From Candidatus Woesearchaeota archaeon (lineage in GTDB: Archaea > Nanobdellota > Nanobdellia > Woesearchaeales > SKIA01), in assembly GCA_007117065.1 (NCBI GenBank), contig SKHI01000011.1, positions 1 through 36,467 of the forward strand: 36,467 bases of DNA, written 5' to 3'. The notes beneath the pieces were generated by a model. That model saw only the letters and a program-made list of their open reading frames with translations. It was not told where the DNA came from and searched no databases. Below are positions 13,270 to 25,964 of the stretch, piece after piece; the stretch's first letter is position 1; every line of letters begins with the position of its first letter. The position numbers and the translations under genes are program-made.

Positions 13270-13544
13270 TGGGACACACAACACCCAGCCAAAGAACTGT
13301 AATAGAAAGCACACTCAAAGAATTTGAAACATATGGACGATCATTAAGAAAAGAAGAACAAGAAATATACAAAGAAATGCTTGAAAGAGTATATGCGCGA
13401 GTAGGAAACATAAGCTTTACTGGAAGCGTTCACGTATGGAAATTCATATTGCTCTCACTGATACTAGATATTGAATTAAAAAAGAAAACACATGATACTC
13501 ATAGATGTATTTGTACACGAAAACAAGATAGTAACGTGGTATAA
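13269..13544 (+). CDS. Uncharacterised small, mostly helical protein (91 aa) in the polymerase cassette
   Basis: TAATG start/stop coupling with the preceding ORF; overlaps the polB start by 53 nt. Confidence 0.65.
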   Translation: MGHTTPSQRTVIESTLKEFETYGRSLRKEEQEIYKEMLERVYARVGNISFTGSVHVWKFILLSLILDIELKKKTHDTHRCICTRKQDSNVV

Positions 13545-15510
13545 ACAAGAAGAAGAAAACATTTTTCAAGAACACACATACAATCCCAGCGTATACATTA
13601 AGGCAACACCACAAACAGAAAAAATAGTACAGAAGTACTCAATAGAAAAAAAGACCTGTACATTACTAGATGGAACAAGAGACGTTTTTTATAAAATACA
13701 GGTGCCGAAAATATATGCCTTCAAACCATTTGTTAAACGATTAGAATATGAAATAAAACACCAAGAAGAAATCTACTATGGAGACATAAGTCCTGAATAC
13801 AAATTTTTATACGAAAAACAGTTAGAAATACTCAATTATCAACACAAAGAACAAAGAAGACAAATAATTGATTACAGACACATAGCGTTCACAAAACTCT
13901 TTTTAGAAATACATATACATGAACAAAACATTTCAAGCATAACAGTTAACAAAAAAACAGTAACAGGAACTGAACAAGAAATACTTATTCTTTTTTCAAA
14001 AAAATTTGTACAGGTAGACCCTGATATTATCTTTCTAGAAAATGCATACGCTACCATTTCATTTCTTGCAAAAAAATTACGCGAATATGGCATTCCTGAC
14101 ATACTAAACAGATTCACACACGAACTGAATTATAAAGGCGGAAAAACATTTTTTAGCTATGGAAGAGCAGTATACAAAGATTTTAGCGTAAAACTAAAAG
14201 GAAGAATACTCATTAATACAACAACCACAATAGGATCATTAGATTTTATAGGCATACTTGAACTGTGTAAACTCAGCAACGGACTCGTACAAGATATCGT
14301 AAGTAAAAGCTATGGATCAATTTTTAGCACAGCAGTAAATAAAGAGATAGCACTAGAAAAGAAACTCATACCCTATAAAGAAAAACCCTTAGAAGAACCA
14401 CTTTCACTAATCAATTTTACTAAAGGAGATAGAACAGCACACGTGTTTGATCCAATACTAGGAACAACAAAAAACGTATTAGAAATAGATTTTAGTAGCA
14501 TGTTTCCCTGGATAATATATAATTATAATTTAAGTGCAGAAACAATAAAAAAAGGAAAAACCTATCAAAAAATACCTGAACTCCCCATATACTGCGACCT
14601 CTCAAAAAAAGGAATCACACCAAAAGCCATAAAACCCTTTCTAAGTAGAAGGATGGAGGCCAAAACAAATAAGGAAACCGAAATAACAAAAGCACTCAAA
14701 GGAGTGCTTGTAAGTAGCTACGGATACTTACGATTTAGAGAATTTAAACTCGGTACACCAGCCAGCTATATGGCAATTTGTAGCGTAGCAAGAAACATAC
14801 TTATACAAGCAAAAGAAATAGCAGAACAACACGGATTTAGCCTGGTGCATGGAATAGTAGATAGCTTATATCTGCAAAAAAACAACTATACAACAAAAGA
14901 GGTAGAAAAATTAGTACATGCTATATACACACAGTTTGGGATACCTGTAGAATATGAGCTGTTCGACTCAATAACCTTTCTTCCTAGCGTTACAAACAAT
15001 AAAAAACCAGTAGCAACAAAATATTATGCTAAATATAAACAACAAGAAAAATATAAACTACGAGGACTTATGTGCAGAAAAAAAAGCACCCCACCAATCA
15101 TAAAAACATTTCAGAAAAAAATAATACTACTCTGTGAGCAAAAAAATTATTTCACCAAATGTACAACATTGTTAAGAAAATACGTATCTAACATGAAAAA
15201 CAGCGAAAAAAAAGAGTTCATCATGTATCAAACAATAGGAAAAGAACACTATAAAACATACACGATAGGAAAAACACTCATAAAAAAATGTAAAGAAAAA
15301 AATATTTGCATACACCCAGGACAAACAATAGCATATTATTATGGCGGGAAAAAAATATGTCTTGCAGAAGAAGAAAACAACATACAGTACCAAAAATACA
15401 CAGATATGCTCATAGACGCAGTCCATGAAGTAATCAATATATACGGGCATACAAAACAAGAAATAAGAAACGCCCTGCAATATAACACACTTACACAGTA
15501 TTTCTCTTAA
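13492..15510 (+). CDS. Family B DNA polymerase, divergent, exonuclease motifs degenerate
   Basis: Motif A LEIDFSSMFPWIIYNYNLSAET, motif B KALKGVLVSSYGYLRFR, motif C HGIVDSLYL. Confidence 0.9.
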   Translation: MILIDVFVHENKIVTWYKQEEENIFQEHTYNPSVYIKATPQTEKIVQKYSIEKKTCTLLDGTRDVFYKIQVPKIYAFKPFVKRLEYEIKHQEEIYYGDISPEYKFLYEKQLEILNYQHKEQRRQIIDYRHIAFTKLFLEIHIHEQNISSITVNKKTVTGTEQEILILFSKKFVQVDPDIIFLENAYATISFLAKKLREYGIPDILNRFTHELNYKGGKTFFSYGRAVYKDFSVKLKGRILINTTTTIGSLDFIGILELCKLSNGLVQDIVSKSYGSIFSTAVNKEIALEKKLIPYKEKPLEEPLSLINFTKGDRTAHVFDPILGTTKNVLEIDFSSMFPWIIYNYNLSAETIKKGKTYQKIPELPIYCDLSKKGITPKAIKPFLSRRMEAKTNKETEITKALKGVLVSSYGYLRFREFKLGTPASYMAICSVARNILIQAKEIAEQHGFSLVHGIVDSLYLQKNNYTTKEVEKLVHAIYTQFGIPVEYELFDSITFLPSVTNNKKPVATKYYAKYKQQEKYKLRGLMCRKKSTPPIIKTFQKKIILLCEQKNYFTKCTTLLRKYVSNMKNSEKKEFIMYQTIGKEHYKTYTIGKTLIKKCKEKNICIHPGQTIAYYYGGKKICLAEEENNIQYQKYTDMLIDAVHEVINIYGHTKQEIRNALQYNTLTQYFS

Positions 15511-21812: not shown

Positions 21813-22190
21813 CTATATCCTATCAGCAATAGAAATGCTCTGCACCTCTTGGGGCTCTAACAATAGCACGCCTCTGAGTGTACGCGAAGGATGTTGTTGA
21901 GCAACCCAAGAGACTGCTTTGTCGAATACAGCGCCGGAATCATGATATTGTATAAGCCCCTTTATTTGATACCCATCAAGGCCATTCCATGCAACAAGAG
22001 AAACAAAAGGATTTTCTCGAACGTTTATACGTGTTTTTTGCATGAAGTAGTCAAAAAGCCACACCATAGTATCAATACAACGGATTGAGGATACAGGAAC
22101 GGCATTTATACCACTTGGACCAGTTGTTGCCAGGACTTTACTTGACGCGTCATGCAACAAGATGTCAACAACAGCCGAAGAGAGCATCAT
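21813..22190 (-). CDS. Pyridoxamine 5'-phosphate oxidase-like (FMN-binding split barrel) family protein
   Basis: VLATTGPSGINAVPVSSIRCIDTMVWLFDYFMQKTRINVRENPFVSLVAW. Confidence 0.7.
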   Translation of the reverse strand: MMLSSAVVDILLHDASSKVLATTGPSGINAVPVSSIRCIDTMVWLFDYFMQKTRINVRENPFVSLVAWNGLDGYQIKGLIQYHDSGAVFDKAVSWVAQQHPSRTLRGVLLLEPQEVQSISIADRI

Positions 22191-23872
22191 GCTTCACATG
22201 CTTCACAGAGTTTCTTCTGATTAAGCTTTTGCGCAGCATTTGTACTATGTTGATAGTACAAGGATTTAATACCTAACTTCCATGCAGCGATATAAAATTG
22301 ATTAATCTCTTTTATCGTTGTTTCAGGATGAATCATGATATTGAGTGACTGGCCTTGATCAACATAATCTTGACGAACAGCTGCTTGATGAATAATGCTC
22401 ATCTGATCGATCTCCGGATAGGTCTTAAAGACTGCGCGCTCTTGTTCTGATAAGAAATCAAGATGTTGAACAGACCCATCGTGGTCACGAATACTCCTCC
22501 ACACCTCAATAGTGTTCTTTCCTTTCTGCTCAAGAAGTTCAGTAAGGAATGGATTCTTAATCGTAGTCTTAATCTTTTGAATATCTTTGACGTAACAATT
22601 ACTCCATACAGGCTCAATCCCTTGTGACACTTGGCCAAGAATAAATGCTGAGGAAGTTGTTGGAGCAATAGCGTTTAACGTAGTGTTTCTTCGCCCATAC
22701 CCTTTGAGTAGCTCTGGCTCACCAAACAAACGAGCAAGTTCTTCAGATGCTTTGTAAGATCGTTCTTTAACAAGCTTGAAGATCTCTAGATTTAGTTTTG
22801 CAGCTTCCTTACTCTCGAAACTGATCATCTTTGACTGTAACAAGGAATGCCAACCAAGAACACCCATACCAAGAGCACGATGGCGCTTTGCAAAATTGTA
22901 TGCCCGCTCCATAAACAAGAAAGTCTTGTTATCCTCTGGATCATCTGAATCTCTGAAACGCTCTAGCTTGGTAAGAAACTCGGTAATGATAGCGTCTAAG
23001 AAATACACCATCGTTTCAACTGCGTCAGTATCCTTCCATTCATGATAATGCAGAAGATTAATTGATGAAAGAACGCACGTAAAGGACTCCTGCTCATTAC
23101 TGGGAAGCATTATCTCAGTACACATGTTACTTGCATGAATTGTTAATTGCTTGTCTTTATACACATCAACAGTGTTCCTATTGGCAGTATCTGTAAAGAA
23201 AATGTACGGATATCCTTTTTCCATACGCATTTGAATAACCTTCGCCCAAAGCTTACGCTTGTCCTCATCACCAGCTATCATCGCTTCCATCCAATCATCC
23301 TCAACGCAGACGCCATGAGTTAGTTTTTGTATGGGGTTTCCTTCACTTCCAATTTCCATGAACTCAGAAGCATCACCGTGGCTTATGGGCAAGTATGGAG
23401 AAAAATGCCCTCTTCGAGTAGAACCCTGACTGACTACATCAACAAGAGTTTCAAAGAGTCGCATGAAATGCGCCGCACCTGATGATTCTCCATTATTCTT
23501 GATAGGAGCACCTCTTTTTCGCAGTTTACCAAAGAAACCAGATGTACCCCCGCCTAACTTAGACATCATACCCGCCTCGGATTGTGCGAATAATATGGAG
23601 CCCATATTATCATCTAAACAAGAACCAAAACAACTAATCGGAAGACCGCGTTCTAAACCGAAGTTTGTCCAAACAGGAGACGCTAAAGAATAATATCCAC
23701 GCGACATGTAGTCATAGAACTTGTCAGCAAACCCTTCAATTTGAAGAATTTTTTCTGCTGCTTGTGCAAGCTGACGTACTCGTTGTTCCGCGGTTTGCCC
23801 TTCAACTAAATATCCTCGTTCAAGAAACGTTCGACTGTGCTCTGTTAACCAAGAAAAATTGCTTTGTTTCAT
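22187..23872 (-). CDS. nrdA: Class I ribonucleotide reductase catalytic subunit, without an N-terminal ATP-cone
   Basis: SLASPVWTNFGLERGLPISCFGSCLDDNM, GGGTSGFFGKLRKRGAPI, ALGMGVLGWHSLLQ, C-terminal KKLCEACEA; Met 23872 preferred. Confidence 0.93.
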   Translation of the reverse strand: MKQSNFSWLTEHSRTFLERGYLVEGQTAEQRVRQLAQAAEKILQIEGFADKFYDYMSRGYYSLASPVWTNFGLERGLPISCFGSCLDDNMGSILFAQSEAGMMSKLGGGTSGFFGKLRKRGAPIKNNGESSGAAHFMRLFETLVDVVSQGSTRRGHFSPYLPISHGDASEFMEIGSEGNPIQKLTHGVCVEDDWMEAMIAGDEDKRKLWAKVIQMRMEKGYPYIFFTDTANRNTVDVYKDKQLTIHASNMCTEIMLPSNEQESFTCVLSSINLLHYHEWKDTDAVETMVYFLDAIITEFLTKLERFRDSDDPEDNKTFLFMERAYNFAKRHRALGMGVLGWHSLLQSKMISFESKEAAKLNLEIFKLVKERSYKASEELARLFGEPELLKGYGRRNTTLNAIAPTTSSAFILGQVSQGIEPVWSNCYVKDIQKIKTTIKNPFLTELLEQKGKNTIEVWRSIRDHDGSVQHLDFLSEQERAVFKTYPEIDQMSIIHQAAVRQDYVDQGQSLNIMIHPETTIKEINQFYIAAWKLGIKSLYYQHSTNAAQKLNQKKLCEACEA

Positions 23873-23873
23873 A

Positions 23874-25148
23874 TTAAAATAAGTCCTCACTCGTTACGCT
23901 CTGCGCTTTCTTCGTATAATTAATAGATCTTTTTGCAAAGAAGTCTACGTGTTTTGTAGCAATTACTTCATCATCAAACCATTCTGTTTCAGCAAGAATT
24001 TTTTCATTTACCTCAAACACTGCAGGAATACCAATACTTGTTAAGGACCTGTTGAAGCGGTCTTTGATGAATTCATCAATAACAATTTTTGGAAGAAAGT
24101 CCAGCTCGCCCTCAGCAAAAATCCAGTCCACAATCTTTTTCTCACTCTCATATGCTTGTAAGCACATTTCTTGAATGCGTAACTCGTGCGCTTTATCAAA
24201 CCATTGAGGGTTTTCTGCGCGTATTATATTTATGACATCAATACCAAAGTTGCCATGAATTTGCTCTTCCTTACTCGTTGCTTCAACAACATTTGATATA
24301 CCTGGGAACTGGTTTCTGTACTTGTTAAAGGACATGATGATGAGGAACTGACTAAACAAGGATACATGCTCAATGAATAATGAAAAGAGCAGTAAGGACT
24401 GCGAATAATCTTTGTTCTCATCAGTATTTGCATAGCGTAAAGCAGCCTCAAGGTAGTCGACACGTTGCATAATAACAGGCTCTTGCTTTAAGTTCTCAAA
24501 CTCATTGTTCAAACCAAGAAGTTCAAGAAGGTGTGCGTATGCATCATGATGGCGAACTTCACTCTCTGCAAATGTTGAACCTACAGAACCAATTTCTGGC
24601 TTGGGAAGCTTCTTGTACACATCCCCCCAGAACGTTTTTACTGCAACTTCTATCTGCGAAATTGCAAGCATCGTCTTTCGAATAGCATCGCGCTCAGAAG
24701 GAGAAAGACGAACCTTAAAGTCTTGAATATCCCCATCATACTTAAACTCTGTATGAATCCAATACGAATGCCGGATAGCATTCACATACTCTTGTAACTG
24801 CGGATATTCGTAGGGTTTGAGATTAATGCGCTTGGAGAAAATGTTGCTTTTTCGCTTACGCGCTTGCTCGTCACGATACAAAATGTATGCTTTCGCAGTT
24901 TTGTGAAAATCGCTTTGCATAAGTTGCTCCTCTACAACATTCTGAATTTCCTCAATACCAGGAACATAGTCAGAATCAGTGCCAGCAATTCTTTCCAGTT
25001 GGGCAACCACTCGATTAGACACCTCCTTTGCATCAGAAAGACTCCCTTGCTGTACCTCTTGCATAGCCTTGTAGATTGCTAATGCAATTTTTTCATCATT
25101 GAATGCTTTTATCGAACCATCTCGTTTCTTAACATACTGTAAACCCAT
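23874..25148 (-). CDS. nrdB: Class I ribonucleotide reductase radical-generating subunit with N-terminal ATP-cone
   Basis: N-terminal VKKRDGSIKAFNDEKIALAIYKAM...YILYRDEQARKRK (ATP-cone), then ferritin-like FAESEVRHHDAYAHLLE with ExxH and Tyr. Confidence 0.92.
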   Translation of the reverse strand: MGLQYVKKRDGSIKAFNDEKIALAIYKAMQEVQQGSLSDAKEVSNRVVAQLERIAGTDSDYVPGIEEIQNVVEEQLMQSDFHKTAKAYILYRDEQARKRKSNIFSKRINLKPYEYPQLQEYVNAIRHSYWIHTEFKYDGDIQDFKVRLSPSERDAIRKTMLAISQIEVAVKTFWGDVYKKLPKPEIGSVGSTFAESEVRHHDAYAHLLELLGLNNEFENLKQEPVIMQRVDYLEAALRYANTDENKDYSQSLLLFSLFIEHVSLFSQFLIIMSFNKYRNQFPGISNVVEATSKEEQIHGNFGIDVINIIRAENPQWFDKAHELRIQEMCLQAYESEKKIVDWIFAEGELDFLPKIVIDEFIKDRFNRSLTSIGIPAVFEVNEKILAETEWFDDEVIATKHVDFFAKRSINYTKKAQSVTSEDLF

Positions 25149-25180: not shown

Positions 25181-25203
25181 TTTGTTATAATAAAACATAC
25201 ATA

Positions 25204-25219
25204 ACACAATATGTGGCAC
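25204..25219 (-). promoter_or_regulatory. Candidate NrdR box (distal half degenerate)
   Basis: ACACAATATGTGGCAC matches the NrdR consensus acaCwAtATaTwGtgt at 11/16 positions by eye; starts exactly 31 bp from the next box. Confidence 0.45.
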
Positions 25220-25234
25220 TTCAATAGAATAATA

Positions 25235-25250
25235 ACACTGTATATAGTGT
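25235..25250 (-). promoter_or_regulatory. Candidate NrdR box (near-perfect)
   Basis: ACACTGTATATAGTGT matches the NrdR consensus acaCwAtATaTwGtgt at 15/16 positions by eye. Confidence 0.6.
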
Positions 25251-25568
25251 TTTGTGCATATTTTTGTACATACGGAAAATAAAGGTAGCGCTGTACAACA
25301 GAAGAGCTACAACGCAGAAAAAACAGCTCTATACACCCCCATTAAAAAGGAGTGGAAGGCACACTATATAGCAGAAAAATAAGCATACAAAAAGTAAACA
25401 AAAGAAGAAGTTCCAACCACCCAGTGTACAAAAGGAGGAACTGGCGAAAGAATGCGAATAGTGAACAACAGAGTTCTCGTACAAAACTAAAAGCACAGAG
25501 TACACTAGCCACTGCAGAGACAGACCATTATATAAATAATAATAACCCCAGCAGAGGTTAAATACACC

Positions 25569-25964
25569 ATGACAATTGTAAATGCCATACTCATGAAAGA
25601 ACAACACGTTCTGGCAGTAAAAAGGAACACCCAACCCTACAAAGGAATGTATGCATTACCAGGAGGACACGTAGAAACAGGGGAGACCAAACACGAAGCA
25701 CTCATTCGTGAAATAAAAGAGGAAATAAATAGCGAAATACGAATAGAGAAACATGTGGGAACAGTTACAGAAAGAAACATGATCGTTCATTTCTATACAT
25801 GTAAAATCATTCAACAAGAACCATGTAAACCAAATGAGGAAATAGCAGATGTGAAGTGGATGAGCATACCAGAATTTATTGAAAACCTCAAGCAACATCA
25901 CGTAGAAAGCTGGGAAGAACTAGAACACATACTACATGAGCAAAGCAGTCAAGTAAAGATTTGA
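25569..25964 (+). CDS. Nudix hydrolase (MutT-like)
   Basis: GGHVETGETKHEALIREIKEEINSEI, a near-canonical Nudix box. Confidence 0.9.
   Translation: MTIVNAILMKEQHVLAVKRNTQPYKGMYALPGGHVETGETKHEALIREIKEEINSEIRIEKHVGTVTERNMIVHFYTCKIIQQEPCKPNEEIADVKWMSIPEFIENLKQHHVESWEELEHILHEQSSQVKI

Follow-up and report, generated by a model that had tools for sequence, protein, structure and literature searches.

Ribonucleotide reductase operon and NrdR boxes

The window (the whole stretch of DNA analysed, 36,467 nucleotides) encodes TFB, a proteasome alpha subunit, SBDS, an exosome-type RNase PH protein, EF-2 and a Cbf5-type pseudouridine synthase, and so its host is an archaeon. A genome of 0.9 Mb, in a phylum with many small genomes, suggests a DPANN lineage, probably Nanobdellota. 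On its minus strand is a class I ribonucleotide reductase (RNR) operon, nrdB-nrdA, preceded by two palindromes that resemble bacterial NrdR boxes. The features of this region are as follows.

22187..23890, minus strand: nrdA, class I RNR catalytic subunit without an ATP-cone (TIGR02510, NrdE-prime; 772 bits, cut-off 602)
23874..25148, minus strand: nrdB (PF00268 and PF03477; best solved relative 5olk, a beta subunit 1 with cone)
25184..25195, minus strand: candidate TATA region of nrdB, TTTTATTATAAC (putative; TATA-like 8-mer with two mismatches)
25204..25219, minus strand: NrdR box B, proximal to nrdB, coding strand GTGCCACATATTGTGT (31 bp from box A; five mismatches, matrix rank 4)
25235..25250, minus strand: NrdR box A, distal to nrdB, coding strand ACACTATATACAGTGT (one mismatch to consensus, matrix rank 1)

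Box A (ACACTGTATATAGTGT, at 25235) and box B (ACACAATATGTGGCAC, at 25204) lie at -102/-71 relative to nrdB, and their starts are 31 bp apart, reproducing the positions and spacing given in an earlier sequence-only reading of this DNA. That reading also described box A as one base away from the NrdR consensus (ACACWATATATWGTGT), which agrees with the single mismatch counted here, and box B as weaker. Box B does have five mismatches, with one good half-site and one degenerate half-site, yet it scores fourth of the 36,452 window positions with the matrix described below. C4 and G13 are kept in both boxes (ACAC...GTGT in box A and ACAC...GCAC in box B). The locus thus has two palindromes separated by a whole number of helical turns with an RNR operon downstream, and the pair scores 27.2 bits. 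The listed start of nrdA is GTG, with an ATG at 23872 as an alternative.

A single box identified by consensus is weak evidence, because 0.82 consensus sites with three or fewer mismatches are expected by chance in the window. As the consensus was insufficient for box B, a symmetrised scoring matrix was built from 74 boxes preceding nrdR genes that belong to other families in this phylum, with the window's own family excluded. By this matrix box A ranks first in the window, and the next-best pair, which reuses box B, scores 6.8 bits. In dinucleotide shuffles of the 420-bp intergenic stretch, the score of box A alone was reached in 15 of 4000 sequences and that of the pair in 0 of 4000. The box pair is beyond chance. 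In a pattern search of the 907-kb assembly, box A is the sole site with at most one mismatch and all others have at least two; the pattern permitted R at position 6, such that the "0 mismatch" of box A in that search is by construction. The sites with two mismatches (L003-L010) were considered as further operators and rejected, being mostly within open frames and having no good partner at 30-33 bp.

Origin of the nrdBA operon

The ATP-cone of this enzyme sits at the N-terminus of NrdB and is absent from NrdA. The same organization (NrdA without a cone, NrdB with an N-terminal ATP-cone, and an nrdB-nrdA operon) is found in NrdAi/NrdBi of Leeuwenhoekiella blandensis (PMC5794259; PDB 5olk), whose NrdB is 64% identical to that of the window. 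The two systems differ in that PMC5794259 covers viruses and bacteria, with archaea unmentioned, whereas the window host is an archaeon; in addition, the L. blandensis genome is without nrdR. The nearest relatives of NrdB in the search are bacterial (up to 69% identity), and in the NrdA tree the protein is nested in bacteria beside two gammaproteobacteria (SH-aLRT 88). Among 380 genomes of the phylum, a cone-bearing NrdB occurs at full strength only in the window genome (G000) and one congener (G003), the remaining matches being cones of other RNRs or distant NrdB proteins. On the evidence of the search and the tree, the class I nrdBA operon is the part acquired from bacteria.

NrdR of the window genome and of the phylum

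A full-length nrdR gene was found elsewhere in the genome, at L001:1495-1947 on contig C11; together with the box before nrdB in a congener (below), this means that the refuting condition named in the sequence-only reading did not hold. This contig is separate from that of the operon and is archaeal, with eIF5A-like, Obg-like and other archaeal-type genes alongside nrdR. The 150-aa product scores 185.5 bits against the equivalog model TIGR00244, 61 bits over the curated cut-off of 124.65, and matches both the Zn ribbon and the ATP-cone (PF03477, 75.5 bits). It keeps all four Zn cysteines (two CxxC pairs), the RRRR motif, R17 and R37. Residue 15, which is the base-reading D15 in Streptomyces coelicolor NrdR (PMC9110341), is E, a conservative change; in the phylum this position is D in 69 of 82 proteins and E in 12. 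Every solved chain that matches the protein is called NrdR. The genome has only two ATP-cones, those of NrdB and NrdR. A box was also looked for upstream of the window genome's own nrdR, and none was found.

NrdR has been described as rare in archaea (PMC9110341, PMC12176259), and the sequence-only reading likewise took it to be uncommon. This does not hold for the phylum sampled here, in which NrdR is the norm (268 of 380 genomes over the TIGR00244 cut-off). Upstream of nrdR, 49 of 94 regions (almost all of them from this phylum) hold a box with three or fewer mismatches, compared with 1.3 in shuffles. Box pairs (seven or fewer mismatches) before nrdR peak at 30, 31 and 32 bp (8, 9 and 19 loci, respectively; 0 in shuffles), and pairs also precede some other RNR genes (e.g. 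L081 and L083). The nrdR gene therefore appears to be native to the phylum, although the resolution of the NrdR tree is too weak to prove vertical descent; the nearest proteins by path are those of two congeners. Because NrdR is unexceptional here, the earlier suggestion that bacterial-type regulation was "acquired or retained" has to be divided: nrdR appears resident in the phylum, while acquisition applies to the nrdBA operon. In haloarchaea, nrdR adjoins class I genes (nrdR-nrdB-nrdA or nrdR-nrdA-nrdB loci; PMC3019208, Table 3), whereas in the window genome it is on another contig, in the congeners it is beside class II nrdJ, and in the phylum it is broadly distributed. No paper on NrdR in DPANN was found within the literature searched.

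Class II RNR and a cobalamin riboswitch in the congeners

In two congeners (G002 and G003), nrdR is followed directly by class II nrdJ (TIGR02504) and has a box approximately 130 bp upstream. G003 also has nrdBA, with nrdB split over two contigs, and is the sole other congener with this operon. It has a near-perfect NrdR box (one mismatch) before nrdB, such that the box is conserved in this relative; no second box is clear there, the best half-site scoring near zero. Between this box and nrdB is a riboswitch, on a contig with archaeal-type genes:

L029:748-808 (G003), minus strand: AdoCbl-II riboswitch (RF01689; 52.1 bits, cut-off 36.5)

The window genome differs in both respects. An Rfam search of the window gave no match and hence no riboswitch, and neither class II nrdJ nor class III nrdD (NRDD) was found in the genome. 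With no nrdJ, nrdBA is its only detected RNR; as the assembly (51 contigs) has a completeness of 97%, the absence of nrdJ is likely rather than certain. A coherent reading is that where both enzymes are present cobalamin should shut off class I, while a genome that lacks nrdJ would be harmed by the riboswitch and does not carry it, NrdR control of nrdBA having stayed. In this genus an imported enzyme has probably come under resident control, and the controls vary with the presence or absence of an alternative B12-dependent enzyme.

AdoCbl-II is over the cut-off in 7 of the 380 phylum genomes, and the genes behind these matches (L242-L247) include a CobO/BtuR adenosyltransferase (L243) and ECF-S-like membrane proteins (L242 and L245). 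Another genome of the same family (G001; contamination 5%) has two nrdR genes (L023 and L026) and a class II RNR inside an open frame of 1561 aa that may include an intein. G002 encodes a lone 92-aa ATP-cone protein (L233:1862-2140) before V/A-type ATPase-like genes.

Promoter geometry

The sequence-only reading placed the boxes just upstream of the nrdB TATA box. TATA-like 8-mers start at +55 from the box A start in both the window genome and G003. In G003 the riboswitch, necessarily downstream of the transcription start, helped with the placement. The location is plausible given the shared offset, but each match is imperfect, with two mismatches. The end of box B is approximately 8 bp from the candidate TATA region, and so a bound NrdR tetramer should clash with TFB. 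The match that places the TATA box is weak, and repression of nrdB is therefore what we infer from this arrangement. The order of elements is different in most phylum nrdR promoters, where the boxes are downstream of the TATA box. Among those with 31-32 bp pairs, 30 of 38 have a TATA-like 8-mer without mismatches ahead of box 1, at a distance that is most often 24-27 bp, and so the transcription start probably falls within the pair. NrdR sites of Mycobacterium tuberculosis are likewise downstream of the transcription start (PMC4428469).

Proposed regulation of nrdBA

The pair at 25204/25235 is, with high probability, an NrdR operator through which NrdR loaded with ATP and dATP would repress nrdBA, an operon of bacterial origin under resident NrdR; every sequence test applied supports the identity of the boxes. 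Counting against this reading are the degenerate box B, the lack of a clear second box in G003, the position of the boxes upstream of the likely TATA box, the E at position 15 of NrdR and the absence of a box before the window genome's own nrdR. The proposed model is as follows. When dATP accumulates, the NrdR tetramer would take up ATP and dATP. The loaded tetramer would hold the two boxes, which are separated by three helical turns, and bend the DNA, by homology with NrdR that in the presence of both nucleotides engages two boxes at a three-turn distance and kinks DNA (PMC9110341). Bound NrdR would block assembly of TBP, TFB and RNA polymerase at the nrdB promoter, turning nrdBA off, and would release the operator when dATP is low. 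ATP and dATP would also act on the enzyme itself via the N-terminal ATP-cone of NrdB. This resembles the bacterial NrdR regulon (S. coelicolor and Escherichia coli; PMC9110341, PMC12176259) in its Zn-ribbon and ATP-cone protein and in the two palindromic boxes approximately three turns apart (31 bp here) before RNR genes; spacers between NrdR boxes are 15-16 bp in most bacteria (PMC12051234). The differences are an archaeal (TBP/TFB) promoter, a pair that apparently sits just upstream of the TATA box and a degenerate box B.

The boxes could instead be chance palindromes in AT-rich intergenic DNA or the site of an unrelated regulator, given that about one consensus match with three or fewer mismatches is expected per window. 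This is highly improbable, as no shuffle reached the pair, the boxes adjoin an RNR operon in a genome that has nrdR, a congener also has a box and boxes recur across the phylum. A less remote alternative, though still improbable, is that box A alone is functional, or that NrdR acts in an activator-like manner upstream of the TATA box to tune transcription, with box B a relic. The one strong box of G003, with its second not clear, and a candidate TATA located downstream of the box in both genomes are consistent with this. However, box B is the fourth-best site in the window and is exactly at the canonical distance, and E. coli nrdHIEF requires both boxes for high-affinity binding (PMC12051234).

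The boxes may also have arrived with nrdBA from an NrdR-bearing bacterial donor rather than evolving under resident NrdR after transfer. Of 21 bacterial genomes with the nearest NrdB proteins, only Hydrogenovibrio UBA650 has nrdR, and of 26 loci scanned, only that same genome has clear boxes before nrdB (a pair 30 bp apart); therefore NrdR presence and boxes go together. The bacteria closest to the archaeal operon in the NrdA tree are gammaproteobacteria, and Hydrogenovibrio UBA650 is one of them, which fits such a donor. On the other hand, the other gammaproteobacterium (L100) has neither nrdR nor a box, the Flavobacteriales loci scanned carry no boxes, the Hydrogenovibrio UBA650 pair is at -272/-242 before nrdB, unlike that of the window, and the same kind of box already precedes nrdR in the archaeal phylum. 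Arrival with the operon is less likely than not, though more probable than the alternatives above, and the imported bacterial nrdBA operon likely came under resident NrdR.

Beyond this locus, we consider it somewhat probable that NrdR is an established RNR regulator across this archaeal (probably DPANN) phylum on TBP/TFB promoters, that it captured an imported class I operon at least once, and that in this genus it is layered with a cobalamin riboswitch that would switch between class I and class II. With NrdR the norm and its paired operators canonical, archaeal promoters must be subject to a nucleotide-sensing repressor of bacterial type. While the kind of system is known, its prevalence in an archaeal phylum and the layered controls in the genus are new.

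Neighbouring genes

The possibility that the boxes serve the divergent Nudix gene (25569-25964) was considered and set aside, as approximately 320 bp separate it from the boxes and a TATA-like sequence of its own (TTATATAAATAA) is present near 25528. Elsewhere in the window, positions 13492-15510 encode a 672-aa family B DNA polymerase-like protein, which is divergent and has only a weak Pfam match.
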